This document shows, in pieces, positions 48,004 through 63,719 of a stretch of DNA of 64,000 nucleotides. The DNA lies in assembly GCA_003020925.1 (NCBI GenBank), contig PXRT01000017.1, forward strand, positions 193,414 to 257,413, read 5' to 3'. A program made the translations under genes and the position numbers. The DNA comes from Halobacteriales archaeon QS_6_64_34. GTDB lineage: Archaea; Halobacteriota; Halobacteria; Halobacteriales; Haloarculaceae. The first letter of the stretch is position 1; every line of letters begins with the position of its first letter. Under the pieces are notes generated by a model, which saw only the letters and a program-made list of their open reading frames with translations, was not told where the DNA came from and made no database searches.

Positions 48004-49122
48004 TTACTGCCCGATGTTGACGACTTCAGCCTGGACGGTGACCGGGCCGAGGTCGAGGACGACCGTCGAGCCGTACTGGAGCCGCTCCCCTCTGAAAACG
48101 ACGCCATCCCCAGTTTCTCTGACCCGGAGTTCGGTCGTCAGTGTCACGTCTCGCAGCGTCGGATGGTCACTAACGACGACCGAGCCGTTCTGGGCCGTCG
48201 AGATAATAGGGGTCGGTTCGGTGGTCACGCCGGTCACGTAGGCCGTCGTCTGTCCGCCGGCCTGCTCGGTCTGTCCGGGCTGGATAGCTGTCGCAATCCC
48301 GGGCCGGACGCTCGTCGTCTCCAGTGTGACCGTCCGGTTGGTCAGCGACTCGCTCTCGAGCCCGCTGCCGACGCGCTCGATGCTTCCGTTGATGGTGTAG
48401 TCCGACGTGGATAATCGCACCTGCTGGCCGGGCCGGAGCGGTGTCCCGCCAAAGCGGCTGACGCCTTGCTGTGTGTGTGTCGATAGGTTCGCCTCGATCA
48501 GAATCTGACCCCGGCTGGTGTCCGTCGTCGGGTAGACGGCAACCGCTTCGACAGTCGCAATGGTGCGGCCGGCGACCGTGATTTCGTCGTCGGGAGTGAT
48601 TGCGCTCGCGTCCGCCGCCGAGACGTTATCCCGGAGCACGACGGTCGTCGTGGCAGTGTTGAGGCTTGACCCGTTGCCGACCGCGCTTATCTGCCCGGTG
48701 ACGTTGTACCTGTCAGTGTTAATCTCCAGAACACGGCCTAGACGCGGCGGTGCGTTCGCGTAGTCGAGGGTGTCGTTGCGCATTTGTCCCTCAAGCCTGG
48801 CACGGGCGACGACGCGTGTCTGGTCGCTCTGTGGAGCCAGGTAGATGTCGGTGATGGTCAAGTTCGACGCTTCGGTGGGCGCGTAGCTGTCACCCTCCTC
48901 GAGCGCCGCGACGATGTAGTCGGGCTGGGTGCCGAGGTCAATTGTGACGAACGTTGTACCTGTTTCGCGAGTGTCACCGTCGCCGCCACCGAAAACGAGC
49001 CCGACGCCGGCGACGAGAACCGCCAGCACGAGCAGGAGGACGAGCGCATCGACGACGTTAATGACACCGAGGAGGTTTCCTTCGTCGTCGATGAGTCCAT
49101 CGCTCGACTTCAGTGAGTCCAT
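48004..49122 (-). CDS. DUF4330-type membrane-anchored protein
   Basis: A 372-residue protein with one N-terminal transmembrane helix (VVDALVLLLVLAVLVAGVGL, about residues 24-43) preceded by SDGLIDDEGNLLGVINVV, the DUF4330 signature. The large outer part is beta-rich and shows three similar blocks, each with a phrase like V-G-x-G/N (VLEINTDRYNVTGQISAVGN, VRLSTSDYTINGSIERVGSG, LQYGSTVVLDLGPVTVQAEV). In bacteria and archaea DUF4330 proteins sit beside polysaccharide synthesis genes, as here with the sugar transferase 36 nt upstream in the operon. A structural role in glycan export is inference. Confidence 0.85.
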   Translation of the reverse strand: MDSLKSSDGLIDDEGNLLGVINVVDALVLLLVLAVLVAGVGLVFGGGDGDTRETGTTFVTIDLGTQPDYIVAALEEGDSYAPTEASNLTITDIYLAPQSDQTRVVARARLEGQMRNDTLDYANAPPRLGRVLEINTDRYNVTGQISAVGNGSSLNTATTTVVLRDNVSAADASAITPDDEITVAGRTIATVEAVAVYPTTDTSRGQILIEANLSTHTQQGVSRFGGTPLRPGQQVRLSTSDYTINGSIERVGSGLESESLTNRTVTLETTSVRPGIATAIQPGQTEQAGGQTTAYVTGVTTEPTPIISTAQNGSVVVSDHPTLRDVTLTTELRVRETGDGVVFRGERLQYGSTVVLDLGPVTVQAEVVNIGQ

Positions 49123-49158
49123 GGATGGCTGTCTATCGCTCGTGATATGTGATTTTTG

Positions 49159-50589
49159 TTATCGTCCCCTGATTCGTTCCGAGACGAGGGCGCCGACATC
49201 GACGACGACACTGTAGAGCTGTCGAACGACGATTTTCAGGTCGAAACTAAACGATTGCTGGCGGATATACTGGATGTCGTAGCGTATCTTCTCCGCCGGT
49301 TGATGGCCCGTTACACCGTTAATCTGGGCCATGCCAGTCAACCCTGGTTTCACGAACCAGCGGCTGCGCCATTCCTCGACGTTCCGTTCGATGTCCATGT
49401 CAAGTTCCGGCCGCTCGGGCCGCGGACCGACGACACTCATGTCGCCGACGAGGATGGACCAGAGCTGCGGTATCTCGTCGAGATGTGTCCGTCTGAGTAT
49501 CTGTCCAACCCGAGTTACTCTCGGGTCCGTCTCGCCTGCGTCCTCCTCGCTGAGCTTTGCACCGGTCTTGGACTCAGCGTTTGCGACCATACTCCTGAAC
49601 TTGTAGATGTTGAACGTCTCGCCGAACGCGGCGGTTCGGGTCTGTCTATAAAGTATTGGCCCTGGGGAGTCGAGTTTGACCGCTACTGCGATAGCGAGTA
49701 TTACCGGCGACAGACAGAGGAGTGCGAAACCAGCAAATGCAACATCGAAAACACGCTTGACTACGTAGTCCTGCCAGTCCCACGGTTCGAGGTTGGTGTC
49801 GACGAGTTCGCCACCGGTCGCGTCGTCGACCAGCACGTTATCGGCGTGGTCCCGGTGAACCTTCGCCTGGACGCCGTGTTCGAAACAGGTCGCAAGCGCG
49901 CCGAAGAACTCCTCGCGGTCCGGGTGCTCGAAGGCGAGGAGCACGGTGTCGATATCGTGTTCGACGAGCACTTCATCCAGTCGCGAGAGGCCGCCCAAGC
50001 GCGGGAGGTCCGCCGCGCTCTCGATGGTCACACCGCCGTCGGCAAGTCGCTGTTGTCGGTCCGTCACACGGACGCTCGACGGCGCCACGATCCCAAGGAT
50101 CGGCACCGTGGCGCTCTCGAACAGCCGGCGCATGATCCCGGTTTCGTCGCCGACGATGATGGCCCGCTCCGAGACGCTCGGACGCCGACGGATGGCGACG
50201 AACCACACCGGGAGGACGAGTCCGAGAAAGAGGATGGTCACGATGAGTGTCGTCCGTGGCAGTCGCGAGGACCAATCGAAGTAGCCGATTGTGGCGAGCA
50301 CTGCCGCTGTGACGAACACCCGTTCGTGGGTCAGGGCTATCGTATCGAGAATGCGTCGCGGTCGGGGTTTGAACAGTGGCCACAGCACTGCGAGTGTGAC
50401 GACGACTGTTACCGTGATCTGGTCGAGAAGGTCGCCGTTCGAGAGTGTCGCCGGCTTGAGGCTGTTCAGCGGTGGGATTGCCGTGACGAGCGTCTGAGCG
50501 AGCGGCGTATTAGCGACGAACACTGCACCGGCGATCCACAGTGTCGCACCGCAGACAGCAACGAGTCGGTATCGCCACCCGGACTGCAT
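49159..50589 (-). CDS. Polyprenyl glycosylphosphotransferase (sugar transferase)
   Basis: A 476-residue enzyme of the WbaP/WcaJ type that transfers a sugar-1-phosphate to a polyprenyl (here dolichyl) phosphate and starts lipid-linked glycan synthesis. Five N-terminal membrane helices (residues 1-120) precede a nucleotide-binding-like region (IIVGDETGIMRRLFESATVP). The catalytic domain begins KRVFDVAFAGFALLCLSPVI and includes FNIYKFRSMVANAESKTGAK, THLDEIPQLWSILVGDMSVV and GPRPERPELD. The TATA box at 50613-50620 fixes the start at ATG 50589, although the frame is open to 50841. It is the first gene of the operon with DUF4330. Confidence 0.92.
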   Translation of the reverse strand: MQSGWRYRLVAVCGATLWIAGAVFVANTPLAQTLVTAIPPLNSLKPATLSNGDLLDQITVTVVVTLAVLWPLFKPRPRRILDTIALTHERVFVTAAVLATIGYFDWSSRLPRTTLIVTILFLGLVLPVWFVAIRRRPSVSERAIIVGDETGIMRRLFESATVPILGIVAPSSVRVTDRQQRLADGGVTIESAADLPRLGGLSRLDEVLVEHDIDTVLLAFEHPDREEFFGALATCFEHGVQAKVHRDHADNVLVDDATGGELVDTNLEPWDWQDYVVKRVFDVAFAGFALLCLSPVILAIAVAVKLDSPGPILYRQTRTAAFGETFNIYKFRSMVANAESKTGAKLSEEDAGETDPRVTRVGQILRRTHLDEIPQLWSILVGDMSVVGPRPERPELDMDIERNVEEWRSRWFVKPGLTGMAQINGVTGHQPAEKIRYDIQYIRQQSFSFDLKIVVRQLYSVVVDVGALVSERIRGR

Positions 50590-50612
50590 TACGTAGTAGG
50601 TTGTGAGTATGG

Positions 50613-50620
50613 TATAAAAA
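50613..50620 (-). promoter_or_regulatory. TATA box of the sugar transferase gene
   Basis: On the minus strand this reads TTTTTATA, centred near 50617. A start 26 nt later is at about 50591, giving a leader of only 2 nt to ATG 50589. Confidence 0.6.
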
Positions 50621-50804
50621 CGCTGCGAGAGAGTGGGAGACAGCAAAGTACTGTGTGGCAACAGTACAACACCGAAAGCCCTCGTGCCTTGCGGTCCTGG
50701 GACCGCCCCTGCGCTCCTCACCTTGTTGCGGTACTTGCGGGGTTCAAGTTCCCGCGACGGCACTTGCCCTTTCATCTGCCAGGGTATAGATGGTGACACG
50801 GCTG

Positions 50805-50884
50805 ATACTGTCGGCTGTACGCACGTGGAGATATTCGCCACTCCGAGGTGGCGGATTCGTTCGTAATGTCACAGCCGACAGTAT
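50805..50884. repeat. 80-bp foldback element
   Basis: ATACTGTCGGCTGT (50805-50818) and ACAGCCGACAGTAT (50871-50884) are perfect inverse copies. Between them CGCCAC (about 50837-50842) pairs with GTGGCG (50848-50854), giving an inner hairpin. The element sits in the middle of a divergent gap. It has no coding capacity. A mobile palindromic repeat or a transcription boundary is possible. Confidence 0.6.
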
Positions 50885-50998: not shown

Positions 50999-51466
50999 AT
51001 GCGTATCCTTTGTGTCGCTCAAAAGCTCTATCCGGAGGTCCCCGGCGGCGGGACATACCACGTCCATGCGATGTCACGCGACCAGGCCGACCTGGGACAC
51101 GACGTGACCGTCCTGACGATTTCTGACGATCCCGACCTTCCACGGCACGAGAAGCGCGACGGGTACACCGTGATTCGACGACCCGTGACTGCATCCGTAT
51201 TTGGGAACGACCTCTCTATCGGCGTTGCCCGGTTTCTGCACGACGCCGACGAGTTTGACGTGATTCATGCCCGTTCACATCTCTATGCCTCGACGAATCT
51301 GGCCGCGCTGAAGCGGCGGTTCGGCGAGACGCCGCTGGCGATCACCAACCACGGACTGTACAGCCAGAACGCGCCCGAGTGGCTGTTCGATATCTATCTG
51401 CGGACCGTCGGCCGGTGGACGTTCGACCGGGCCGACGTGGTGTTCTGCTACACCGACGAGGACTAA
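50999..51466 (+). pseudogene. Truncated GT4 glycosyltransferase
   Basis: A 155-residue frame begins as a normal GT-B enzyme: MRILCVAQKLYPEVPGGGTY with the glycine-rich loop, FDVIHARSHLYASTNLAALK, and DRADVVFCYTDED at the end. Family members have about 370-400 residues, and the second Rossmann domain with the nucleotide-sugar-binding E-x7-E site is absent. The frame ends in TAA at 51464, where base composition changes, so the 3' half was probably replaced when the adjacent island arrived. A stable N-terminal fragment without transferase activity is all that could be made. G+C is still high, like the backbone. Confidence 0.75.
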
Positions 51467-51512: not shown

Positions 51513-53333
51513 ATGGCTGCTGACTCGGAGGAAATCAGCCGACATGAACAAGTACGGGCCTTACTGCGCGTCGCAAACTATCGGCCCGTACTTACCGTCG
51601 GCATCATTCTCGGCGGCGTCCTTGCTGCTCTATTGGAGGGTATCGGAATCAGTTTTATCATGCCGATTATCGAGTTCGTTCAGGAGTCCGGTGGATCCGG
51701 GACGAACGCTGACGGCGTCATGCGCGTGTTCAGAGCTGCGTATGATATACTTGGGGTACCACTCACATTGGGCTCTGTCGTGGCTGGCGTCAGTCTGATC
51801 CTCGCTGTGCGTTGGACATCGACATTTGTCGTACGCTGGTTGCGCGAGGCGCTGGTAGTCGATTACACGAGAGAGATACAGCGACAGTCGTTCGATAATG
51901 CGCTCGATACCCGGGTAGAGTATTTCGATCAAGAGGGTTCTGACGACATCCTGAACGCCATAGTTACGCAGGCCGAGTACGCGGGTCGAACGATTCGGTT
52001 CGTGATCAACTTCCTCGAACAGGGATTTATGGCGTTTCTGTACCTCGCGGTCGCGTTCATCTTGGCACCGCGGCTTACTGTCTTGGTAATTATCTTTCTC
52101 GGCGGGTTCTCGATGTTGTTCCGCCATGTCGTGGAACCTGGTTACAAACTTGGAGACGAAGTTGCAGATGCCAACGAACGCGTTCAGCAGACCGCTCAGG
52201 CCGGAACGCAGGGCATCCGCGATACGAAGCTATTTGGGCTGAAGAGGGAACTCTTCGAGGAGTTTCTCGCTGCTGTCGATAAGTTTGCGAACGCGAGTAT
52301 AAAGCTACGCCGGAATGAACAGGCAATCAAGAGTTTCTACAATCTATTGACTGCAATTTCGGTGTTTGTCCTTATTTATCTTGCAATCGTGTATACTAAA
52401 CTCACGCTCAGCTCGCTCGGTATCTTCCTGTTCGCAATATTCCGCCTCGGACCGAAGGCAAGCAATCTAAACTCGCAGCTATATAAAATAGAGAACAACC
52501 TTCCTCATCTCGTGCGGACGCAGCAGTTCATCGACGAACTCGAACAGAACCGGGAACCGACTGATGACAGCAAACCAGTCCCGGAGAAAATACGAACTGT
52601 AAAGTTCGATGATGTTTACTTCTCCTATGAGGGACAGGAAGACGAAGCTCTGTCAGGCGTTTCGTTTCAGTTCGAACGAGGCGAGTTTATTGGGTTCGTT
52701 GGCCAATCTGGTGCTGGAAAATCGACTATCGTGTCGCTACTGGCGCGACTGTACGAACCTAATTCCGGAGAGATACGTGTAAATGGAAAATCCACTCACG
52801 AAATGGACATTGACGAGTGGCGATCACGGATTACCGTAGTTCGACAGGATCCCTTCATATTCAACGACACACTCCGGTACAATCTCACCATCGGAAACCG
52901 AGATGTATCACAAAAGAAACTGGAAGAGATCGCTAGAACCGCGTGTATCGATGAATTCCTCGATGATCTGCCGAAAGGATATGAAACCCAGCTCGGGGAC
53001 GACGGAGTTCGATTATCAGGCGGACAGCAGCAGCGAGTCGCCTTGGCCCGGGCATTGTTGAAAGACGCTGATCTGTTAATCTTGGACGAGGCGACGAGCG
53101 ATCTTGATTCGAATTTGGAACAACAGGTCCAGAGATCTATTGAGGAGATGGAGCAAGAGTACTCGATAGTCGGAATTGCACATCGACTCTCGACTGTCAA
53201 GAATGCGGATCACATCTATACTGTGGACGATGGAGAGATAATCGAAACCGGTAACCATGAACGACTTTTGGAAAGCGGCGGCCAGTACGCCGAACTGTAC
53301 TCAATCCAGTCCCAGGAAAGCCAGGATGATTGA
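51513..53333 (+). CDS. ABC exporter (MsbA/PglK-like flippase)
   Basis: A 606-residue half-transporter with an N-terminal six-helix permease domain (residues 20-330) and a C-terminal ATPase domain. Walker A is GQSGAGKS (397-404), the signature is LSGGQQQRVALARALL (about 507-522), and Walker B is LLILDEATSDLDS. Homodimers of this type move lipids or lipid-linked sugars; PglK does so for an N-glycan in Campylobacter. Between a lipid-glycan initiating enzyme and a polymerase/ligase, flipping of the lipid-linked glycan is the best inference. G+C is clearly lower than upstream, with many A/T-ending codons. It begins 47 nt after the truncated GT4 gene. Confidence 0.9.
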   Translation: MAADSEEISRHEQVRALLRVANYRPVLTVGIILGGVLAALLEGIGISFIMPIIEFVQESGGSGTNADGVMRVFRAAYDILGVPLTLGSVVAGVSLILAVRWTSTFVVRWLREALVVDYTREIQRQSFDNALDTRVEYFDQEGSDDILNAIVTQAEYAGRTIRFVINFLEQGFMAFLYLAVAFILAPRLTVLVIIFLGGFSMLFRHVVEPGYKLGDEVADANERVQQTAQAGTQGIRDTKLFGLKRELFEEFLAAVDKFANASIKLRRNEQAIKSFYNLLTAISVFVLIYLAIVYTKLTLSSLGIFLFAIFRLGPKASNLNSQLYKIENNLPHLVRTQQFIDELEQNREPTDDSKPVPEKIRTVKFDDVYFSYEGQEDEALSGVSFQFERGEFIGFVGQSGAGKSTIVSLLARLYEPNSGEIRVNGKSTHEMDIDEWRSRITVVRQDPFIFNDTLRYNLTIGNRDVSQKKLEEIARTACIDEFLDDLPKGYETQLGDDGVRLSGGQQQRVALARALLKDADLLILDEATSDLDSNLEQQVQRSIEEMEQEYSIVGIAHRLSTVKNADHIYTVDDGEIIETGNHERLLESGGQYAELYSIQSQESQDD

Positions 53334-53361: not shown

Positions 53362-54603
53362 ATGGACGCAGTACTACTCAACTCTCGAAATTCAAGAGCG
53401 TTTTTATTATCCAATACTGTATTATTAACCATCGCTACTTTGGCTTTTGTTGTTCCCGGGTTAGAGATAGGTGGTTTCAATATTTTTGCTTATGTGATAT
53501 ATATAATCCCTCACACTGGGCTACTGCTGTATCTCATGGTGACCAGGCGGGAGTTTGCTCTTGACTTACCCTATCCACTGTACGGTCTACTTCTATTTGC
53601 CCTCTACGTGGTCTGTAGTTTCTTTTGGGCCACAGACACCACTATCGCGGTGAAAAAGATGGTGATTATTGTAACCTCGATTGGTGTAGCGATGCACCTG
53701 TACTGGAGCATTGCGCACTACCGTACACTCAATTGGTATCTTAGAATAATCCAAATTGTATCGATTATCGGGCTTATCGTAGCGGCTTTTGAGATCGTCA
53801 CAGGTGCTCATCTTCCGGTGAGCAACGGATACGGATCAGATACATTCCATATGAGTACGGCATGGTATCCAAATGTGAACGACTTTAGCTTCTTCTTAGC
53901 GATCGTTGCGTTCCTGTTTCTGATACCGGCACTCCCTGTAAAGCAGTCCTGTTCAACTCTGCTTGGGATATTAGGGTATGTCGGATGTGTCACCGTTATA
54001 TTCCTGAACGGTTCCCGTGCAGCATTGCTCTCAGTACTAATAGTCACAACGCTTCTGTTGTTTCTATACGCTGGAAAAGACACAATATCTGACTTTTTCA
54101 ACGATGGGACGGAGTGGCCGATATTTACGTCCATCTTATTGATGTGTTCTCTCGCTATAATCGCCGTGTTTTCTCTCGTCCCTAACATATTCGAGCCGTA
54201 TGGAAACCGATCATTCTGGTTCAGATGGCAATCTCACAGAGCAAGTGTGATATTCTTATTCCGGACAGGTATCGGTGTCGGGGTCGGTAATTTCCCGGTT
54301 GAATTATCACTGTCGAACATCCCACCTGCTGCTCGGATCAACACTCATAGTTGGTTCGCGACTCTCTTAGGTGAGTACGGGTGGATAGGGACCGGGTTGT
54401 TTCTCCTTGCTTACGGCCGCACTCTCGATAAACTTTTGTTCCAGTTCATCAGAAACGGAGATAACGTCACTCTTGGATTACTCGGGGCATTACTCTCGTT
54501 CGTACTTGCTGGACTCGGACCGAATGATGTCTTAGTGTTTCAAATTCACTGGATAGTTTGGGCTCTCGCGATTGCGGCTATTTACCGTATTCGGGACTCG
54601 TAA
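53362..54603 (+). CDS. O-antigen ligase/polymerase-like membrane protein
   Basis: A 413-residue protein with about eleven hydrophobic segments (for example FLLSNTVLLTIATLAFVVPG). A large outer loop follows with RINTHSWFATLLGEYGWIG (about residues 325-343), the conserved H-x-x-x-x-x-x-x-G-x-x-G motif of the Wzy/WaaL family. Such proteins polymerise or ligate undecaprenyl-linked glycans at the outer face. It follows the ABC gene by 28 nt on the same strand and is probably cotranscribed. It is the most AT-rich gene of the window. Substrate and direction (polymerase or ligase) cannot be distinguished by sequence. Confidence 0.85.
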   Translation: MDAVLLNSRNSRAFLLSNTVLLTIATLAFVVPGLEIGGFNIFAYVIYIIPHTGLLLYLMVTRREFALDLPYPLYGLLLFALYVVCSFFWATDTTIAVKKMVIIVTSIGVAMHLYWSIAHYRTLNWYLRIIQIVSIIGLIVAAFEIVTGAHLPVSNGYGSDTFHMSTAWYPNVNDFSFFLAIVAFLFLIPALPVKQSCSTLLGILGYVGCVTVIFLNGSRAALLSVLIVTTLLLFLYAGKDTISDFFNDGTEWPIFTSILLMCSLAIIAVFSLVPNIFEPYGNRSFWFRWQSHRASVIFLFRTGIGVGVGNFPVELSLSNIPPAARINTHSWFATLLGEYGWIGTGLFLLAYGRTLDKLLFQFIRNGDNVTLGLLGALLSFVLAGLGPNDVLVFQIHWIVWALAIAAIYRIRDS

Positions 54604-54615
54604 ATGTCGCTCCGT

Positions 54616-55515
54616 TCACGTTCGGTACCCGAGATCCTGAAGCCGCTCTTCGACGTCTGTTGACGCTTCAGTCCGCGTTCGCTGACCGCTGGTTATCGTT
54701 CGCCGTTCGCCGTTGACGACCTCCATCCAAGGGACTGTGACTAGTTCGTTCATCAGGACCCCCTGAGGATGACCGTATACGGGTAGCGGCCATCCCGGAG
54801 GACTCTCACCGAATGCGTTCCCATGGTCGGCGGAAACAACGATCTTTCCGCTGACTGCCTCTACCACGTCTTCGACATACGGGAGCGTCGTCTGTAAACA
54901 CTCTTCGTACGCATGGCGGGCTTCGTCCGGGTCAACATTGCCACGTTGTATCTTGAGGAAGACAGCATCGTCGTCGAATGCGTGTGTCTCGAAGCTGGAC
55001 GTACCGACAAACGGGTAGTGAGGCTGAATCCAGTGAGCCAAGATGCGCTTGTCCGGATACATCTCGTGCGCTTCAATAGTTCTCTCAGCCATGACATCTG
55101 GCATGACTGTTCCACGGTCCTCGTCCCAATCGTCTTCGAAGACGGGGATGATATCGTGGAACGCGCCACCGCGAAGCTGCGTCGTTCGTGGATTCGCCGT
55201 GACAACAACGGTATCGGAGTGATCGCCATCGAAGTTCCGGAGATAGAACGTGCTCGTATTCGCTGCTCGCGACCGAACGGGGAGCGCAGACGGCCAGTAA
55301 TCCGGTTTGTATTTATTAAATGAATCGTATCGACAGGCGTCGAGAACGATTAGAGTGTCCCAATCGCTCTCCATTACATTAACTCCGCGCGGATTCTGAT
55401 TCCCATCCTTGTAGTATCGCTTCCTCAATAGATACTTCTCGGCCGCTCTGTACCAGAGAGACCTGTCAGAATACTTCTCTAGAATCCCGGTCATATTGTT
55501 GCTGAATGCGTTCAT
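54616..55515 (-). CDS. Alkaline-phosphatase-superfamily (sulfatase-like) enzyme, copy 1
   Basis: A 299-residue cytoplasmic-looking enzyme, without signal peptide. Conserved metal and active-site parts are LIVLDACRYDSF (Asp59 region), the nucleophile candidate Thr87 in AANTSTFYLRNF, HWIQPHYPFVG, VVSADHGNAFGE (metal Asp/His) and YGHPQG. It ends ERLQDLGYRT. Copies 2 and 3 (56908 and 58989) share all these blocks. A Thr/Ser nucleophile, rather than the sulfatase Cys, suggests a phosphotransferase (phosphoglycerol or phosphoethanolamine type) or phosphodiesterase. The start ATG 55515 gives the same length as the copies; a TTG at 55626 overlapping the GT4 stop is an alternative. It is the second gene after the GT4 at 56744. 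Confidence 0.85.
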   Translation of the reverse strand: MNAFSNNMTGILEKYSDRSLWYRAAEKYLLRKRYYKDGNQNPRGVNVMESDWDTLIVLDACRYDSFNKYKPDYWPSALPVRSRAANTSTFYLRNFDGDHSDTVVVTANPRTTQLRGGAFHDIIPVFEDDWDEDRGTVMPDVMAERTIEAHEMYPDKRILAHWIQPHYPFVGTSSFETHAFDDDAVFLKIQRGNVDPDEARHAYEECLQTTLPYVEDVVEAVSGKIVVSADHGNAFGESPPGWPLPVYGHPQGVLMNELVTVPWMEVVNGERRTITSGQRTRTEASTDVEERLQDLGYRT

Positions 55516-55622
55516 CGAATCACTTTTTCCACAAGTGTACTGCAACCTTCTCATAGTCGCTAATAGGCCACACGCTTCGTCGTTCAAGTCCCGGTAAAGC
55601 CGTACCAGTGCTGTCGCGAGGG

Positions 55623-56744
55623 TCAAATACCATTGACATCATCTATGGCTTCCAAGTACAGGTCAATTGTCCGATCTAGAGAGTAGTGGTTGGCCCGGTC
55701 TTCTATCTCTTCTACTTGATTGCAGAGTTCCCTCTGCATCGCCGCAGCCATCGCGTCTGGTGAGCTAACGGGGACCAGTTCTCCCCACTTCCCGCCCTCA
55801 AGTATCTCCGACACGCCACCCGGCGGTGAGTCCGTAGCGACTACCGGGCATCCACAGGCCATCGCCTCTATCAGCGCATTAGGCAATGTTTCCTTTTTCG
55901 AAGAGAGGACGAAGAGGTCCGCATTTCTCATATATTTGTAGGGGTTGTTGACGAAACCCGGCATAGAGACAGAGTCCTCTAGTTCCAGCTCTGTTGTCAG
56001 TGATTCGAGTGCTGGGCGTTTATTGCCCTCTCCGAGAATCACAAGTCGCGCATCGCGTTGGTTTCGTAGACGACTGAAAGCTCTGATGAGAGTCTCTGTA
56101 TCCTTCGGATCCTCTAAACGTTGCACCGCGAGAACGACGGGAACCTCATCGGAATCGAACCATTGGTGTTCTATCGGTTTATGAGATTTGAATAGAATCT
56201 CGTCCGTAATAACGGGCTGGTGTATGATGTGTAACCTGTCCCTGATGTCCGGGGCCGTCTGTAGAAACTTGTCCGCCGAGTTCCGCTCACCTATCACGAC
56301 CTTGTCCGCCCATCGGTACGTCCAGCCGACCAGAGTAGACATGAAGAGACCACGCCAATCGCCGTTCTTGATCCGCTCTCTCTTGCTCTCGACGCCGCCC
56401 TTCGCTATGATCTGGGTGTCTGCGCCGACTAAACGGTCAGCGACGAGCGGAACGACGTTCGCACCACCCGTCGTTGAGATTAACACAGGGGGTGAGTCGG
56501 ATCTGAGGTACTCCACCATCTTCGGGAGTGCAGTAAGCGTTATCGGATACTGTGTGTTGATGTCGAAATCGATGACTCGTGCCTCGCTGGGAATTTCGCC
56601 TTTGAGCTCACCCTCGGCGTTTGCTAGAACGAGATTGACATTGAATTCGCGGTGGATGAACCCTCTGGCGAGCTGTAAAACCGTCCGTGAAGAGCCACGG
56701 CCAGTCAATAGCGGCGTATAGATTGATATTCGCTGGATATCCAT
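55623..56744 (-). CDS. GT4-family glycosyltransferase
   Basis: A 373-residue GT-B glycosyltransferase. The N-terminal glycine-rich loop is IYTPLLTGRGSSRTVLQLAR (about residues 8-27). The nucleotide-sugar site is in the C-terminal domain: VPVVLAVQRLEDPKDTETLI, ADLFVLSSKKETLPNALIEA (E-x7-E), and CGCPVVATDSPPGGVSEIL. It is a retaining enzyme by family. Donor and acceptor are unknown. The frame is open upstream to 56897, but the TATA box at 56771-56778 and the sequence favour ATG 56744. It precedes sulfatase-like copy 1 in the same operon and shares the low-G+C style. Confidence 0.9.
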   Translation of the reverse strand: MDIQRISIYTPLLTGRGSSRTVLQLARGFIHREFNVNLVLANAEGELKGEIPSEARVIDFDINTQYPITLTALPKMVEYLRSDSPPVLISTTGGANVVPLVADRLVGADTQIIAKGGVESKRERIKNGDWRGLFMSTLVGWTYRWADKVVIGERNSADKFLQTAPDIRDRLHIIHQPVITDEILFKSHKPIEHQWFDSDEVPVVLAVQRLEDPKDTETLIRAFSRLRNQRDARLVILGEGNKRPALESLTTELELEDSVSMPGFVNNPYKYMRNADLFVLSSKKETLPNALIEAMACGCPVVATDSPPGGVSEILEGGKWGELVPVSSPDAMAAAMQRELCNQVEEIEDRANHYSLDRTIDLYLEAIDDVNGI

Positions 56745-56770
56745 TCTATACCCACCGTCAAAGTCGGAGA

Positions 56771-56778
56771 ATATTAAT
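56771..56778 (-). promoter_or_regulatory. TATA box of the GT4/sulfatase-like operon
   Basis: ATTAATAT (minus strand) is centred near 56774. It predicts transcription near 56748, 4 nt before ATG 56744. Confidence 0.5.
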
Positions 56779-56864
56779 GATGGCGTGATGAACGGAGACA
56801 CGTGCCTACTGTCAGCCGTCGTTCGCGATGGTGAAACAAAATATATTTGATAGATTACTGCAGG

Positions 56865-56870
56865 TATATA
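56865..56870 (+). promoter_or_regulatory. TATA box of sulfatase-like copy 2
   Basis: TATATA is centred near 56868. A start at about 56894 gives a short leader to ATG 56908. Confidence 0.5.
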
Positions 56871-56907
56871 GATTGGAGATGAAATAAAATCACTCAAAAA
56901 GAGATAG

Positions 56908-57819
56908 ATGTATTCGATGGATCAAATCCGCAGGGGGATTCGAAATCCTCTCTTGATTGGACGCCAGTTGAATAAACTCTATTACTCGTACAGAGGTATT
57001 AAATCCCACCCGGGAGCCGTCAATTTTCTCGACGAAGACTGGGACAACTTGATTATCCTCGACGCGTGTCGCTACGACTCGTTCGCTGAGCACGCCGACC
57101 TTCCGGGCGAACTGGAGCATCGATATTCACTTGGATCGGCTACGCCGGAGTTCACCGAGAAGAACTTCGCCGGCCGGGGTTTGGGCGACACAGTGTATGT
57201 CGGTGCCAACACGTGGTTCTTGAAACTGCAAGACGAGATAGACGCGGAGATACATCACTTTGTGGACCTACAGAACGGAGACCACGATGTGACCTGGGTA
57301 GACAAGGGACTGAAAGTCGTAACCCCGGAATCCGTGACTCATCACGCTAAGCGCATCCAGCACGAGTACCCGAATAAACGAATCATCGTCCACTACTTAC
57401 AACCGCATCACCCGTTTATTGGGCCGACTGGACAGAAACATCTCTCGCATCAATCGAACTCGCTAATGGAGGTCTTTCGCGAAGCGGGTCCGAATGTCAA
57501 CAGACAGCAACTGTGGAAGGCGTACGACGAGAACTTAAAGAGAGTTCTCGAGACAGTGGAGGACCTCCACCCCGAACTGACTGGGAAAACAGTGGTGACG
57601 GCAGATCACGGAGAGATGCTCGGTGACCGCCATGAGATCGTCCCGACCAGAGATTACGGACATCCAAAGGGTATATATAACGACACGCTGGTCAAGGTGC
57701 CGTGGAACGTCATCGAAACGGGCGAGCGGAAGGAAATCATCAAGGAAGAATCCAGAGAACAATACGTAGAATCCGAGGCAGTGAACGAGCAACTTCGAGA
57801 TCTCGGATACGTCGTCTGA
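56908..57819 (+). CDS. Alkaline-phosphatase-superfamily (sulfatase-like) enzyme, copy 2
   Basis: A 303-residue protein with the same blocks as copy 1: LIILDACRYDSF (Asp52), nucleophile candidate Thr79 in GSATPEFTEKNF, HYLQPHHPFIG, VVTADHGEMLGD and YGHPKG, ending EQLRDLGYVV. No signal peptide or membrane helix is seen. The stop TGA is directly followed by the ATG of the next gene, a GT4 glycosyltransferase, so the two are translationally coupled and probably act on one glycan. The ATG at 56917 is an alternative start. Phosphotransferase or hydrolase activity cannot be told apart by sequence. Confidence 0.88.
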   Translation: MYSMDQIRRGIRNPLLIGRQLNKLYYSYRGIKSHPGAVNFLDEDWDNLIILDACRYDSFAEHADLPGELEHRYSLGSATPEFTEKNFAGRGLGDTVYVGANTWFLKLQDEIDAEIHHFVDLQNGDHDVTWVDKGLKVVTPESVTHHAKRIQHEYPNKRIIVHYLQPHHPFIGPTGQKHLSHQSNSLMEVFREAGPNVNRQQLWKAYDENLKRVLETVEDLHPELTGKTVVTADHGEMLGDRHEIVPTRDYGHPKGIYNDTLVKVPWNVIETGERKEIIKEESREQYVESEAVNEQLRDLGYVV

Positions 57820-58923
57820 ATGGCGATGACCGACCGACTAACGCTCTTCATCGGAGATCTCAGCATCGGAGGTGCAGAACGGGTCGTAGTTAATCTCTCG
57901 AAGGGATTTATCGACTTCGGATACGACGTAGATATTGTTCTCGTCAGGAAACGGGGAGAGCTATTGGACGAGGTGCCCAAACAAGTGGATGTAGTCGAAC
58001 TCGACGTCGATCGGATGCGGTGGTGCGTCCCCTCGCTTGCGAGGTATCTTAGGAGGACGCGGCCGCGGGCGATTATCTCCTTCATGACCAGCGCAAATAC
58101 GATGGCTCTCCTTGCGAATCAACTCGGCGGTAGCCCATCCCTTACGATCGCTACGGAGCACAATACCCAATCGATGAAAGAATCGCTCAAGCCGACAATC
58201 ATCCGGTTGCTGGCCCGGTTCGTGTATCCACTCGCGGATTACATCGTGGGCGTTTCATGTGGCGTCTCAAGGGACGTTACAAGCTGGTCAAAGGCGGATG
58301 GAGCGAACGTTCATACTATCTTCAACCCAGTCATAGAAGACTCGTTCATCGAGCGAGAGTACAAGATACCCGATCATCCGTGGTACGGAGACGACGACGT
58401 TGACGTCATTTTGAGTGCCGGAAGACACGTCGAGCAGAAAGACTTCGAGACGCTGATCAGAGCCTTTGCCGAGCTATCGACCACTCGGGAAGCGCGACTG
58501 GTCCTCGCAGGGGAGGGAGAGTGCACCCACGAGTACCACGAAATCGCAGACGAACTCGGCGTATCGGACAAGGTTTCGATGCCGGGATTCGTCGACAGCA
58601 TCCATCGCTATATGCACCATTCCGACATCTTTGCGCTTTCTTCTCGCTGGGAGGGGCTATCGCTCGTGCTCATCGAAGCGATGGGATGCGGCACTCCAGT
58701 CGTCTCGACTGATTGTCCCTCTGGCCCAGCAGAGGTCCTTGAGAACGGTAAATATGGACCGCTCGTACCCGTCGGTAGCCATACGGAGCTAGCCGACGCC
58801 ATCGGACGGACACTCGAGAATCCGATCAGTTCAAATCAGCTACGGAGCAGGGCACAGGATTTCTCGATCGAATCAGCGATGGAGAGCTACGTCTCCCTAC
58901 TTGCGGGCGACGACGGCCTCTAA
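57820..58923 (+). CDS. GT4-family glycosyltransferase
   Basis: A 367-residue retaining glycosyltransferase. It begins MAMTDRLTLFIGDLSIGGAE with the family's GGAERV loop (about residues 17-22). The C-terminal domain carries VILSAGRHVEQKDFETLIRA, DIFALSSRWEGLSLVLIEAM (E-x7-E) and GCGTPVVSTDCPSGPAEVL. It resembles GT4 enzymes that elongate O-antigen or exopolysaccharide repeats with hexoses or GalNAc. It is coupled to sulfatase-like copy 2, with no gap. Donor sugar unknown. Codon use is low in G/C at third positions relative to backbone genes. Confidence 0.92.
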   Translation: MAMTDRLTLFIGDLSIGGAERVVVNLSKGFIDFGYDVDIVLVRKRGELLDEVPKQVDVVELDVDRMRWCVPSLARYLRRTRPRAIISFMTSANTMALLANQLGGSPSLTIATEHNTQSMKESLKPTIIRLLARFVYPLADYIVGVSCGVSRDVTSWSKADGANVHTIFNPVIEDSFIEREYKIPDHPWYGDDDVDVILSAGRHVEQKDFETLIRAFAELSTTREARLVLAGEGECTHEYHEIADELGVSDKVSMPGFVDSIHRYMHHSDIFALSSRWEGLSLVLIEAMGCGTPVVSTDCPSGPAEVLENGKYGPLVPVGSHTELADAIGRTLENPISSNQLRSRAQDFSIESAMESYVSLLAGDDGL

Positions 58924-58958
58924 ACGGTCCTCGTCGACTGAGTACGACCACAAGAGCA

Positions 58959-58963
58959 ATATA
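58959..58963 (+). promoter_or_regulatory. TATA-like box of sulfatase-like copy 3
   Basis: AATATA is centred near 58961. The predicted start near 58987 is next to ATG 58989. Confidence 0.4.
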
Positions 58964-58988
58964 CCGGTAGCAGATACTCTACTTTATC

Positions 58989-59897
58989 ATGTACGGTATA
59001 TCTCATTTGCGGGATGCAATACAGAGTCCGAACCCCTTCTATCACCTTTGTATGCGGGAGATGAACAAGATGTATTTCTCGCGCATGGGATATAGAGATT
59101 ACAATCCTGAAGGGATCAACGTGTTCGACGAGAAGTGGGATAATATGATCATTCTGGACTCCTGTCGATACGATGTCTTTGAGGAAGAGAATTCGCTACC
59201 GGGCACGCTCAAGAAACGGACTTCACGAGGATCGATGTCAGAGGAGTTCGTAGTCGGAAATTTCACCGGCAAGACGCTCCATGATCTCGTCTACATATCC
59301 GGCAACTCGTGGTACGCGAGGAGGTGTCGATCGATCAACGCTGAGGTTCACCACTATTCTTTGATCGATTCCGAGTATCCCGAAAAAACCGAAGAGATAA
59401 CAGAGAAAGCCAAGGAGGCGATCGATTCCTATCCGAATAAACGCATCATGGTCCATTACATGCTCCCGCACTTTCCCTACATCGGGGAAACCGCCAAAGA
59501 GCATTTCCCGAGTATCGATACACAGCGCAAGCGGTTGTTCGCGGATCTGCGCTCTGGAAGTGTGGACATCACGGACGAGCAACTCCAACGGGCTTACAGA
59601 GAAAATCTTAGAATCGTCTTGCGGGAGGTCTCGGAACTGCTCGATGCCTTGTCCGGGAAGACGGTCGTGACGGCGGATCACGGCGAACTACTGGGAGAAC
59701 GGACGTTTCCGGTCCCATATCAGGAATACTCTCATCCCAAGCGAATGTACGTTCCGAAACTCGTCGAAGTGCCGTGGCTCGTCCACGAGAGCGGTGAAAA
59801 ACGAATCGAACCAGAGCCGCCTGCGGAAGACAACCTCTCGGGGATTACCCACGACGACGTGAGGAACAACCTCCGGGATCTCGGATACATCCGGTGA
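58989..59897 (+). CDS. Alkaline-phosphatase-superfamily (sulfatase-like) enzyme, copy 3
   Basis: A 302-residue protein, third member of the set: MIILDSCRYDVF (Asp57), nucleophile candidate Ser84 in GSMSEEFVVGNF, HYMLPHFPYIG, VVTADHGELLGE and YSHPKR, ending NNLRDLGYIR. Copies 2 and 3 also share the N-terminal (L/F)DE(D/K)WDN(L/M)II and INAEVHH/IDAEIHH. The nucleophile is Ser here, Thr in copies 1 and 2. It converges on a GT4 gene 54 nt downstream. Its own TATA-like box suggests a separate transcript. Substrate unknown. Confidence 0.87.
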   Translation: MYGISHLRDAIQSPNPFYHLCMREMNKMYFSRMGYRDYNPEGINVFDEKWDNMIILDSCRYDVFEEENSLPGTLKKRTSRGSMSEEFVVGNFTGKTLHDLVYISGNSWYARRCRSINAEVHHYSLIDSEYPEKTEEITEKAKEAIDSYPNKRIMVHYMLPHFPYIGETAKEHFPSIDTQRKRLFADLRSGSVDITDEQLQRAYRENLRIVLREVSELLDALSGKTVVTADHGELLGERTFPVPYQEYSHPKRMYVPKLVEVPWLVHESGEKRIEPEPPAEDNLSGITHDDVRNNLRDLGYIR

Positions 59898-59950: not shown

Positions 59951-61063
59951 TCACTTCTCGGCCGCTCTCTGATACAGGTTCTGGTACCGTTGAGATGTCC
60001 GTTCAGCACTCAGGTGTTCCTCGGCTACGGCCCGAGCGGTTTCCGACAACGGTTCCCGATTGATCGATATGAGCCTGTCAAGTGCAGCGGAGAGCCCCTC
60101 GGCATCCCGGCACTCGAACTCGGTCCCGATGTCGTCACCGAGGTCGAGTATCTCTTCGTGTGGTCCGATCGTGGAGAGACACACAGGGAGCCCGGAGGCG
60201 ATCGCCTCCATAACGGTGTTCGGCAGGCCTTCCGCAGTAGACCCTGAGACGAAATAGTCCGCGGCTTGGAGGTATTCGGCAACGTTGTCGACGTGTCCTT
60301 CCAGCCGTATCGTATCGTCACCGGCAGCGATCGACTCAAGTGCGCCTCGCTTGTCACCATCACCGAGGAACACGAGCGTCCCGCTCTCGCTCACGTCACT
60401 CTCAAGGAAACCCCTCGCGACCGTCGTCGGATCCTTGCGAGTCGATAGTGCGCCGACAGAGACGAATATGCGGTCTTCACCTGGTAGTTGGAGGTTCCGT
60501 CGACGTTGTCGCTTCTCTTCCTCCGAGACCGGGCAGAACCGCTCCGTATCGACCCCGTTCCGGATGACATCGAGGGACAGATTGTGCCTTCCGGTAAGTT
60601 CACGAACAGTATCGGAACAGGCGACGGGGTACTCTAGCCGGTGGAGCGACCGGAGTTGCGCGTGCGCGATGAAACCCCCCTTGACCTTCCCGAACGCCTT
60701 CGGATAGTCGTAGTATGGGTAGTTGCGGAGCGTCGAAATCCTCTTCTGGTCTGTCAGACAATACGACGAAAAGATGTCCGGCCGGACACCCTGTGAATGA
60801 ATCACATCCGGGGGATTCCGGGCCACTGACTTCCGCAAGTACCGAGGGACTTCCCATATTCCTCGAACACGCGTCGCACCGACTGACTGGAGGCTGACGT
60901 TCATCTCTTCGAACTCCTCAAACGCCGAGTCTGACAGCTCCGGCGAAAGCGTGAGTACACGCGCAGAGAACTTATCCGGATCGAGATTGGAAACGATATT
61001 TTGGAGTTGGTTGGTTGGCCCACTCCGTTCGAGAGTTGAAACTAAATACAGGATTTCTATCAT
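59951..61063 (-). CDS. GT4-family glycosyltransferase
   Basis: A 370-residue GT-B glycosyltransferase. The N-terminus is MIEILYLVSTLERSGPTNQL, with the loop SGPTNQL replacing the commoner GGAE. Acceptor-domain features include PPDVIHSQGVRPDIFSSYC. The nucleotide-sugar site is in IFVSVGALSTRKDPTTVARG, ADYFVSGSTAEGLPNTVMEA (E-x7-E) and SGLPVCLSTIGPHEEIL. It is transcribed toward sulfatase-like copy 3. The G+C of this gene is somewhat higher than that of the ABC and polymerase genes. Which sugar it adds is unknown. Confidence 0.9.
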   Translation of the reverse strand: MIEILYLVSTLERSGPTNQLQNIVSNLDPDKFSARVLTLSPELSDSAFEEFEEMNVSLQSVGATRVRGIWEVPRYLRKSVARNPPDVIHSQGVRPDIFSSYCLTDQKRISTLRNYPYYDYPKAFGKVKGGFIAHAQLRSLHRLEYPVACSDTVRELTGRHNLSLDVIRNGVDTERFCPVSEEEKRQRRRNLQLPGEDRIFVSVGALSTRKDPTTVARGFLESDVSESGTLVFLGDGDKRGALESIAAGDDTIRLEGHVDNVAEYLQAADYFVSGSTAEGLPNTVMEAIASGLPVCLSTIGPHEEILDLGDDIGTEFECRDAEGLSAALDRLISINREPLSETARAVAEEHLSAERTSQRYQNLYQRAAEK

Positions 61064-61219: not shown

Positions 61220-62788
61220 ATGCAATCGGTTTTGATGTATCACGAGGGGTCCTCTTTTGAGCGTGATCTACTTCTTCCGTGGTTAGACTCGTTCAGTGAC
61301 GTCGTTGGGGTAGTCGTCGTGGAAAACAAATTCGATCGCAAACTCGATCGGTTACGTGCCGAATATCACCGCAACGGGCTCACCGGTACCGCTGATGCCA
61401 TAGCGTTTAGACTCTACGATACAGTGCGGAAAACGGATCGGAGAGCGAAAATCCGTAGGCTCGTGGACAAAAAAGGAAGTGAGTACGACGGATCGGTCGA
61501 TCCGCCCACGCAGCGCGTCGAAACGCCGAACAGCGAGCCGACGAGACGGTTTTTACGAGAGCGGGAGCCCGATATCGCAATCGCCCGCGTAAAGTTGCTT
61601 CTGGACGAGGCGGTATTCTCGATCCCATCCACGGGGACGTTCGCCATTCATCCCGGAGTCTGTCCAGAGTATAGGAATGCACACGGTTGCTTCTGGGCGA
61701 TAGCCGAAGACGATCACGAGAACGTCGGGTACACGCTCCTGAAAATCGATAGCGGCGTCGACACGGGGCCCATCTACGCGCAGGGGGGAGCCGAGTTTGA
61801 TCCGTTGGAGGATCACATCTACCTGCAGCTGAAGATGATCGCGGATAATCTCGACGAAATCAGATCCGGCCTTGAGGGCGCACACCAGGGTGACCGGGGC
61901 CCACTCGATATATCGGGGCGAGAGAGCGAAGTCTGGGGGCAGCCGAAGCTTACCGATCAGCTCCGCCTCGTTCGGAGAGAACGGAAACGGAAAGAAACGG
62001 CGCAGCGGACCATTTGTCTTCTGTACCACGATATCGTCCCCGACGATAAGAGCAGTACCTCGGGATTGAACGGATCGTCCGTCTGGCGGTACAAGCTCTC
62101 GCCCACACTGTTTGAAAGCCACCTGAAGCGAATAGTGAAGCAGAGCGCGCCCGTTCGGACGATCGACGAATGCCGACCACACAGGGCGGACTCTGGAATC
62201 TATTTGACCTTCGACGACGGGGGCGACAGTCTTTTTGAGTACGCTGCGCCACTTCTGGAGAAGTACGGGATGCATGGCCACATGAGCGTGATCACGGATC
62301 GAATTGGTGAAGATGGATTTCTCGATCGAGAACAAGTCGCTGAACTCGCACGGCGAGGACACCACATTATGAGTCACACTGTATCACACTTGGACCTGCT
62401 CTCGTGCGATCCGTCTGTCCGGGAGAGAGAGCTAAAAGAATCGAAGTCGGAACTTGAGGAAATCACCGGTAGAGACTGCGTGTCACTTTCTATTCCCGGC
62501 GGGCGGTACGACGAGGCTGTTTTGCAAGCTGCTCGAGACGCTGGATACGAGTACGTCTTCATATCTGATCCGGAGATCGATCCGGCCGACGAACTCGGTT
62601 GGGAAGTACTGATGCTCGGGCGATGGAACGTTTGGAACTCGACGGACGCCGACGAGTTGGAAGCCATACTCCATCAGGACTTCATCAAAACGAGTACAAT
62701 TCGGGCACGTTGGCGAGTACTGAAAACAGTCAAAGGTCTGATCGGGATGGACCGGTTCGTCAAAATCAGGGATACCATCATAAATTGA
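61220..62788 (+). CDS. Formyltransferase-like/polysaccharide deacetylase fusion
   Basis: A 522-residue two-domain protein. Residues 1-215 resemble the formyltransferase fold: AIHPGVCPEYRNAHGCFW (about 142-159) and GYTLLKIDSGVDTGPIY (170-186, with Asp181). The catalytic Asn that normally stands two residues before His144 is Ala142. Residues 265-470 are a NodB-type deacetylase with YLTFDDGG (Asp332, Asp333), HTVSH (His386, His390) and SIPGGRYDEAVL. Fused enzymes of this kind modify amino sugars on glycans, removing an acetyl group and perhaps transferring a formyl group. No signal peptide is seen, so it probably acts on lipid-linked glycan at the cytoplasmic face. Confidence 0.85.
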   Translation: MQSVLMYHEGSSFERDLLLPWLDSFSDVVGVVVVENKFDRKLDRLRAEYHRNGLTGTADAIAFRLYDTVRKTDRRAKIRRLVDKKGSEYDGSVDPPTQRVETPNSEPTRRFLREREPDIAIARVKLLLDEAVFSIPSTGTFAIHPGVCPEYRNAHGCFWAIAEDDHENVGYTLLKIDSGVDTGPIYAQGGAEFDPLEDHIYLQLKMIADNLDEIRSGLEGAHQGDRGPLDISGRESEVWGQPKLTDQLRLVRRERKRKETAQRTICLLYHDIVPDDKSSTSGLNGSSVWRYKLSPTLFESHLKRIVKQSAPVRTIDECRPHRADSGIYLTFDDGGDSLFEYAAPLLEKYGMHGHMSVITDRIGEDGFLDREQVAELARRGHHIMSHTVSHLDLLSCDPSVRERELKESKSELEEITGRDCVSLSIPGGRYDEAVLQAARDAGYEYVFISDPEIDPADELGWEVLMLGRWNVWNSTDADELEAILHQDFIKTSTIRARWRVLKTVKGLIGMDRFVKIRDTIIN

Positions 62789-62864: not shown

Positions 62865-63719
62865 ATGAACGACGCGCACCAAAACGACGCTCAGAGCGAC
62901 TTTCCAAACATATCGGTGATATTATCCACGTACCGTAGCGACACAGCTTCCGAACTGGCAGCGGCTATCGATAGCCTCGCGGACCAGACACTCCTGCCTG
63001 AAGAAGTGCTTATCATCAAAGACGGTCACTTGACTGATGACCTGAAGTCGGTTATCGCAAAGAAAGCAGAGGAATTTCCGACGTCAATCCGGACGCACCG
63101 AATCGAAGAGAATCAGGGCCTAGGAAACGCTCTCAGGACAGGGGTGGTTGCCAGCTCAAACGACATCGTGGCGCGGATGGACGCCGACGACATTTCGGTT
63201 CCATCTCGATTTGAATACCAGGCTACTTTCCTCCGCGAAAATCCGGATGTCGACATCGTTGGAGGATATATTGAGGAATTTGATTCGGATCTCGACGAAC
63301 CTATAGCGAGGCGGGAAGTGCCGACAGATCACGACAGCATCGAGAAAATGGCGCGATCTCGGAGTCCGATGAACCACGCGACGGTTATGTTCGATAAGGG
63401 ATCCGTACTAGATGCCGGAAACTACAGGGCGGTAGACCGGATGGAAGACTATGATCTCTGGGTTCGAATGTTACTGAACGATGCCACGTTCGCAAATATT
63501 CCGGATGTCTTAGTGAAAGCCCGAGGCGGTGAGGGGATGTATAGACGTCGAGGGGGATTGGAATACGCACGTGAGGAAATTCGAACGCAAATCGAGTTCT
63601 ATAGGAGAGGGTTTCTTCCTCTCCACTTCTTCTTATTCAACCTAGTAACACGCGTGACGATTCGATTTTTACCGAGTCGAGTCCGGGGTGTTATATACGA
63701 GTCATTCGCGAGAGATTAG
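62865..63719 (+). CDS. GT2-family glycosyltransferase
   Basis: A 284-residue inverting glycosyltransferase with a GT-A fold. The nucleotide-binding start is ISVILSTYRSDTASELAAAI (about residues 16-35). The metal-binding DxD-type motif is VARMDADDISVPSRFEYQAT (about 101-120, Asp-Ala-Asp-Asp). MEDYDLWVRMLLNDATFANI (about 191-210) contains the E-D-Y-D-L-W block with the catalytic base. A C-terminal hydrophobic segment (LPLHFFLFNLVTRVTIRFLP) suggests membrane association. It follows the fusion gene by 76 nt on the same strand. It is the last complete gene of the island. Donor unknown. Confidence 0.9.
   Translation: MNDAHQNDAQSDFPNISVILSTYRSDTASELAAAIDSLADQTLLPEEVLIIKDGHLTDDLKSVIAKKAEEFPTSIRTHRIEENQGLGNALRTGVVASSNDIVARMDADDISVPSRFEYQATFLRENPDVDIVGGYIEEFDSDLDEPIARREVPTDHDSIEKMARSRSPMNHATVMFDKGSVLDAGNYRAVDRMEDYDLWVRMLLNDATFANIPDVLVKARGGEGMYRRRGGLEYAREEIRTQIEFYRRGFLPLHFFLFNLVTRVTIRFLPSRVRGVIYESFARD

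Follow-up and report, generated by a model that had tools for sequence, protein, structure and literature searches.

Alkaline-phosphatase-superfamily proteins with a predicted Thr/Ser nucleophile in haloarchaeal glycan loci: possible sulfate transferases with a weak tendency to pair with GT4 glycosyltransferases

Why should a haloarchaeal glycan locus hold three paralogous proteins of the alkaline-phosphatase (AP) superfamily, and what chemistry might they contribute to it? We addressed this question for a 64,000-nt stretch of DNA from Halobacteriales archaeon QS_6_64_34 (GCA_003020925.1, contig PXRT01000017.1, positions 193,414 to 257,413 of the forward strand), referred to throughout as the window. 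The gene order between 54616 and 61063 is A(-), GT4_1(-), B(+), GT4_2(+), C(+), GT4_3(-), where A, B and C are the trio of paralogues and the remainder are glycosyltransferases (GTs) of family 4:

A: 54616-55515, minus strand, AP-superfamily protein of 299 amino acids (aa), predicted nucleophile T87
GT4_1: 55623-56897, minus strand, GT4 (Pfam PF00534, E 2.1e-34; 34% identity to GT4_2)
B: 56908-57819, plus strand, AP-superfamily protein of 303 aa, predicted nucleophile T79
GT4_2: 57820-58923, plus strand, GT4 (Pfam PF00534, E 5.5e-38)
C: 58989-59897, plus strand, AP-superfamily protein of 302 aa, nucleophile S84 predicted from sequence
GT4_3: 59951-61063, minus strand, GT4 (Pfam PF13692, E 5.7e-18)

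The answer that we reach is a tentative one, held at just under even confidence: the family to which the trio belongs would consist of transferases placing an acidic ester group on lipid-linked glycan sugars beside their GT4 partners, with sulfate as the most probable group. Sulfate is ranked ahead of phospho-groups because of a precedent in Halobacterium salinarum, where three genes with alkaline-phosphatase domains in the aglB/N-glycosylation cluster were studied in 2025 (PMC11980604). Agl30 (VNG1056C) and Agl31 (VNG1057C), located in the membrane and soluble fractions, respectively, were reported as needed for glycan sulfation. Deletion of VNG1056C or VNG1057C lowered the di-sulfated glycan 250-fold and >50-fold, respectively, with residual sulfation left, and in Haloferax volcanii each gene produced a glycan that was interpreted as sulfated (PMC11980604). 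Loss of a sulfatase would have the opposite effect, which argues against a rival reading in which these proteins are cytoplasmic hydrolases that either trim sulfate or phosphate esters off glycan intermediates or recycle by-products of the donor. The occurrence of family genes in twos and threes within biosynthetic loci (at least two in 29/100 loci) argues against it as well, and we regard hydrolysis as improbable. We infer transfer rather than hydrolysis, and sulfate rather than phosphate.

Inspection of the trio sequences confirms the motifs LDxCRYD, PHxP(F/Y)(I/V)G and ADHG that the initial annotation had listed for A, B and C, and T87, T79 and S84 share one alignment column. Across the family, this nucleophile column holds Thr or Ser in 123/123 rows of a first alignment and T 132, S 58 and C 0 in a 190-row alignment, which comprises 197 hits cut by length to 187 plus the window trio (the trio is thus counted twice, and some organisms are present under two locus names). 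D52, R55, D57, H162, H167, D233, H234 and H252 (numbering of B) are each kept in 185-190 of the 190 rows, where the predicted metal ligands D52, D233 and H234 account for 188/190, 190/190 and 189/190, respectively. Because the column is Thr or Ser and never Cys, a Cys-derived formylglycine is out, and the formylglycine-generating enzyme is itself unmatched at E 1e-10 in the organism's own genome (a 2.2-Mb assembly of 17 contigs, 80% complete) and in 348/391 genomes, its family appearing in the other 43. Sulfatases carry a catalytic Lys two positions after the His matching H252, a position that is not conserved in the family. Since Ser-type sulfatases exist, a type I sulfatase would not be excluded by S84 of C taken by itself. 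The claim of a non-Cys nucleophile, unlike that of type I sulfatases, thus holds for the family as a whole. A further shared feature, the LxDLGY end, is present in all three proteins but is not specific to them, as 49/61 neighboring sulfatase-like proteins end in LxxLGY. The latter constitute cluster c2, represented by 61 genes in 45 loci (e.g. L096:4212-5537). This is another PF00884 sulfatase-like family, of longer proteins, in which the nucleophile is Thr or Ser, never Cys, in the 27/61 with a loose-pattern match; cluster c2 is perhaps of the Agl31 type.

An alkaline-phosphatase fold with a Thr/Ser nucleophile is predicted for the family. AlphaFold2 models of A and B, compared structurally, both lie inside the superfamily, in agreement with the initial annotation. 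Model A is nearest to phosphoethanolamine/lipoteichoic-acid transferases, with modest Foldseek TM-scores of ~0.3 to 0.5. For model B, sulfatases tie with phosphoethanolamine/lipoteichoic-acid transferases, a placement obtained with a second aligner rather than with Foldseek.

The family is large and nearly universal in its class. A search with B returned 3867 proteins at E <=0.001 and a search with A returned 128, where the annotated names among the matches listed are mostly 'hypothetical protein' and sometimes 'LTA synthase family' or 'sulfatase'. Members occur in 345/391 genomes of the class at E 1e-20, often in several copies, with five candidates scored per genome; the counts of the family, the formylglycine-generating enzyme, APS kinase and ATP sulfurylase are taken to refer to one and the same set of 391 genomes. 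Non-haloarchaeal relatives, at ~30-36% identity, come from other archaea and Phycisphaerae. The trio proteins share 36% (A/B), 31% (A/C) and 42% (B/C) identity, and their homology is well above chance (E 2e-46 for A/B, E 4e-79 for B/C). A recent tandem triplication is unsupported, with far closer relatives outside the window for A (72% to P0122) and B (81% to P0002); the nearest relative of C is L101_6 at 49%. A phage origin was likewise rejected, as the phage collection searched gave no match.

How might such proteins reach a lipid-linked substrate? No transmembrane-like stretch (19 residues above hydropathy 1.6) is present in A, B or C, or in any of 204 relatives, this set being the proteins that passed a 290-330 length filter out of 240. 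The first 35 residues carry a mean charge of +3.4 and are positive in 184/204 relatives, while the remainder averages -20.8; the corresponding values are +4/-20 for A, +6/-20 for B and +2/-12 for C. In a haloarchaeal protein, such a charge distribution suggests that the protein attaches to the acidic membrane on its cytoplasmic side, and the models of A and B both start with helices, so that positive N-terminal helices may provide the attachment. The predicted membrane segment of Agl30 (residues 21-39, predictors disagreeing; PMC11980604) falls in the same N-terminal region as the positive stretch of the trio family.

Taken together, sulfate transfer by the family would proceed as follows. On the cytoplasmic side, a GT4 would put a sugar onto a lipid carrier, and the trio-family enzyme would sit at the membrane via its positively charged N-terminal helices. 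The donor group would move onto the Thr/Ser at the predicted metal site (D52, D233 and H234 in B, with H162, H167 and H252 nearby), and the enzyme would then hand it to a sugar hydroxyl. The decorated glycan would finally be flipped outward.

Does the proximity to GT4 genes carry information about this function? The initial annotation had paired each paralogue with a GT4, and three Pfam-supported GT4 neighbors are indeed present, but the sole abutting pair in the window is B-GT4_2, where the TGA stop is directly followed by ATG. GT4_1 and A are separated by 107 nt when A is started at 55515; the ATG there fits the ~290-325 aa of closer relatives, and the 336-aa reading frame of A is too long. 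The gap between GT4_2 and C is 65 nt, and C and GT4_3 are convergent, tail to tail with 53 nt between them. The point at which homology to GT4_2 begins indicates that GT4_1 likely starts at an internal ATG at 56744.

To place these distances in context, we analyzed 100 discovery loci from 100 genomes, one per genome (the best place, G262 excepted), and 40 hold-out loci, of which 17 represent new genomes and 23 come from genomes sampled before. The discovery loci were taken from the top of the family-search list and therefore lean to B-like members. Neighborhood genes were called with a crude caller of our own, which in the window assigned the wrong strand at 49156-50796 and gave no family gene in 5/100 discovery loci. 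Adjacency to a GT4 on either strand was found for 32/128 discovery family genes with two neighbors, compared to 25.0 on shuffling the other genes (as high a count in 55/1000 shuffles) and 22.2 on shuffling all genes (as high a count in 9/1000); the hold-out gave 12/48 against 10.5 expected, and the overall value was 44/176 against ~35.5. A GT4 lay within four genes of 77/128 discovery family genes. Strict pairing was dropped, as adjacency is near chance and only tight coupling, defined as a same-strand neighbor with a gap of -60 to 30 nt, is enriched. The tightly coupled partner was a GT4 in 11/27 discovery cases versus 35/376 background partner slots (p 4e-5) and, after pooling, in 13/32 versus 53/506 (p 2.4e-5). 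The enrichment persisted inside the 77 loci with at least two GTs (12/27 versus 53/316, p 0.0014) and at gap limits of 5, 70 and 150 nt (p 4e-4, 6e-5 and 0.003, respectively), and the family gene was the upstream member in 12 of the 13 coupled GT4 pairs.

Inspection of the family tree indicates that the 'coupled' label, assigned with a 70-nt gap rule and by hand for A of the window despite its 107 nt, needs 14 changes, 11 of them forced by well-supported branches. With labelled rows only, 13 changes are needed and the label is slightly clustered (14/500 shuffles as low). The GT4 tree likewise requires 14 changes, nine of them forced, and coupling has thus been gained or lost many times. GT4_1 and GT4_2 belong to one supported clade of four, and the arrangement GT2, AP-GT4, AP-GT4 is repeated in another genome (G229, locus L097).

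A skeptic would hold that the pairing is meaningless, produced by chance meetings in GT4-dense loci whatever the enzymes do. The near-shuffled level of either-strand adjacency is what this explanation predicts, and other locus genes touch a GT4 equally often or more often (sulfatase-like 21/55; epimerase-like cluster c6 10/24). Tight same-strand coupling is nevertheless enriched, also within GT-rich loci, and is scattered across the family tree. Fusions bear on both sides: no complete AP-GT4 fusion was found, yet one metagenome reading frame, P0269, joins a partial GT4 to a family member. We regard chance meetings as a serious contender, though one that we hold at clearly less than even confidence, and conclude that GT4 pairing is a real but weak tendency that recurs without forming a fixed module; the recurrence that had been anticipated for other genomes holds in part, for tight coupling, and not as a rule. 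P0269 is a 447-aa protein whose C-terminal GT4 part (PF13692, 26.3 bits, cut-off 27) is in frame with the family member, which makes it a possible natural AP-GT4 fusion. Apparent AP-GT fusions of 613 and 671 aa in the fetched loci proved to be over-extended frames.

Several points weigh against sulfate transfer by the trio family, the first of which concern the precedent itself. The H. salinarum proteins were compared with the trio through primer-encoded fragments only (primer table of PMC11980604). That paper lists VNG1056C, VNG1057C and VNG1063H under the UniProt accessions Q9HQQ3, Q9HQQ2 and Q9HQP7, respectively. One of three frames of the VNG1063H primer encodes VHYFQPH, which makes VNG1063H very probably a member of the trio family: the motif H[YFW]xQPH is found in 344/355 database relatives and 170/197 locus family genes, versus 0/61 sulfatase-like and 1/1839 other genes. 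Within the trio it reads HWIQPH in A and HYLQPH in B, and C matches only partly, with HYMLPH (L for Q). Deletion of VNG1063H, however, left N-glycan sulfation much like that of the parent strain (PMC11980604). Agl30, for which the sulfation effect is reported, is only possibly a member by its sequence fragments. Its primer encodes, in one of three frames, DFGHLDM, which fits the family pattern D/E-F/Y-GH (95/355 plus 42/197 family members, 3/61 sulfatase-like and 10/1839 other proteins), and Agl30 ends in HLEDLGYL, an end common to the family and sulfatase-like proteins. The exact string DFGHLD was in none of the proteins scanned, and a pattern search for Agl30 gave no copy in 26 genomes.

The source of the sulfuryl group is a second difficulty. 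APS (adenosine-5'-phosphosulfate) kinase was found in 28/391 genomes, with nine candidates scored per genome, and ATP sulfurylase (PF01747) in 11/391, while canonical sulfotransferases were limited to 1/126 (Sulfotransfer_3) and 3/126 (Sulfotransfer_1) genomes, all at E 1e-10; none of these was matched in the organism's own, 80% complete genome. PF01507, which includes reductases of PAPS (3'-phosphoadenosine-5'-phosphosulfate), was present in 41/126 genomes at the same threshold. As 26 of the 28 APS-kinase genomes also carry the trio family, 319/345 family-bearing genomes lack a clear APS kinase, and a sulfuryl donor would have to be unusual. 'Rare' is valid for clear APS kinases only (127-183 bits in the E 1e-10 set), because when the threshold was relaxed to E 1e-5 and every candidate was scored, weak matches of 27-32 bits, above the Pfam cut-off, appeared in 2/4 genomes, among them a full-length match of 31.5 bits in G229. 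At E 1e-5, no full-length APS kinase was found in two named Halobacterium genomes, one giving none and the other a 50-residue match. Haloarchaea may thus have a divergent APS kinase. In the two loci examined that have a PAPS cassette beside family members, the cassette is accompanied by a canonical sulfotransferase of its own. Either another sulfuryl donor is used, or parts of the pathway are unrecognized, or the group is not sulfate. The cassettes themselves (L101:4084-7863 and L207:1178-7045) hold ATP sulfurylase, APS kinase and a canonical sulfotransferase close together, and look like a PAPS cassette acquired in a few haloarchaea.

A third set of points comes from the models and from the hold-out loci. 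Tight coupling in the hold-out was not significant alone (2/5 versus 18/130, p 0.16), Foldseek returned zero matches below E 1e-3 for model B (best E 0.012, with unrelated proteins among the matches listed), and model A is closer to phosphotransferases than to sulfatases. A rival reading is phospho-transfer, as first proposed for the trio: phosphate, phosphoglycerol or phosphoethanolamine would pass from a lipid donor (e.g. archaeal phosphatidylglycerol) or a nucleotide donor to lipid-linked glycan sugars. In the form given, the proposal is not supported, since the moved group need not be phospho and the Agl30/Agl31 precedent reports sulfate (PMC11980604), and we judge phospho-transfer somewhat unlikely. 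The observation behind the initial annotation is confirmed overall, and its interpretation is supported in part. A bolder form of the sulfate reading, which we consider unlikely, is that Thr/Ser AP-fold enzymes have replaced PAPS sulfotransferases across Halobacteria, with a covalent Thr/Ser sulfuryl ester, a non-PAPS donor such as APS or a sulfated membrane lipid, and lipid-linked acceptors, the enzyme often being co-translated with the GT4 responsible for the acceptor sugar.

By their gene content, the surroundings of the trio are a polysaccharide or glycan locus. The remaining genes of interest in the window are:

44016-46996: candidate sugar nucleotidyltransferase and GlmS gene pair, by our own reading
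49159-50841, minus strand: sugar transferase (Pfam PF02397, E 1.8e-61), which by its sequence may start the glycan on the lipid carrier
51513-53333, plus strand: ABC transporter of the MsbA/PglK kind (PF00005; NCBIfam MsbA-type and PglK matches below cut-off), candidate glycan flippase
53362-54603, plus strand: O-antigen-ligase/polymerase-like membrane protein (PF04932, E 1.1e-5, below cut-off; TuaE-like, below cut-off)
61220-62788, plus strand: formyltransferase-like and polysaccharide-deacetylase protein (PF00551 and PF01522)
62865-63719, plus strand: GT2 glycosyltransferase (PF00535, E 3e-21)

A 155-aa GT4 reading frame at 50999-51466, matching the N-terminal GT4 domain only, is a truncated or broken glycosyltransferase gene. 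The two domains fused in 61220-62788 are adjacent genes in L207 (8455-9393 and 9386-10183), and DUF4330 proteins recur in glycan loci (window 48004-49122; L094:5824-6924). The organism's own genome holds four family members at E 8e-24 or better. Three are the trio, and the fourth lies in the genome's aglB locus, on a different contig from the trio:

L251 (G000:C4:152000-171900): aglB locus, containing a sulfatase-like gene, GT2s and a GT4
L251 9459-10286: fourth family member, on contig C4
L251: putative flippase of 474 aa, by our own reading

The unusual part of these results is that the family is nearly universal in the class while clear PAPS genes are rare. Sulfated glycans are produced by haloarchaea, yet clear APS kinases and canonical sulfotransferases are scarce in the genomes examined. 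If the family sulfates, the sulfuryl-donor question becomes directly testable, and if it moves phospho-groups, haloarchaeal polysaccharides may bear an overlooked modification; under either reading, thousands of proteins mostly named 'hypothetical' gain a testable function. If PAPS sulfotransferases have indeed been replaced, biology would have a second chemical route to sulfated glycans.

How do these proteins compare with known systems? EptA/MCR-type phosphoethanolamine transferases share the catalytic-domain fold with the models of A and B, and the Thr nucleophile with both (C has Ser). They are membrane proteins that act outside the cell, whereas the trio, at 12-17% identity to them, is without an N-terminal transmembrane domain by hydropathy. 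LtaS-type phosphoglycerol transferases, with an extracellular enzyme domain and a membrane anchor, match in fold only, and a profile search of PDB sequences returned no LtaS. Type I sulfatases (PF00884) belong to the same superfamily, and 18/45 family members match PF00884 at E <=0.01; a profile comparison of the family with neighboring PF00884 proteins gave a probability of 98.9 over 110 columns, covering the H-x4-H to VPW part. In contrast to these sulfatases, the trio has no Cys for formylglycine, and PF00884 scores fall below the gathering cut-off of 25 bits for B (18.7) and C (18.0), with A not listed. The closest parallel is the H. salinarum N-glycosylation cluster with its three alkaline-phosphatase-domain genes, so the earlier statement that no archaeal system of this kind had been described is not quite right; among the papers listed in our literature searches, PMC11980604 was the only one that we recognized as treating proteins of this type. 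InterPro assigned a protein family to neither VNG1056C nor VNG1063H, much as Pfam leaves the trio unclaimed, and Agl31 was recognized as an arylsulfatase-family protein (PMC11980604). In the Halobacterium sp. CBA1126 aglB locus, family members stand beside sulfatase-like genes. VNG1063H, Agl30 and Agl31 resemble the trio as alkaline-phosphatase-domain proteins of a haloarchaeal glycosylation locus, and the primers of all three encode the LGY end; the H. salinarum locus contains aglB and produces an N-glycan, whereas in that of the window a sugar transferase gene is accompanied by genes for an ABC transporter and a polymerase-like protein.

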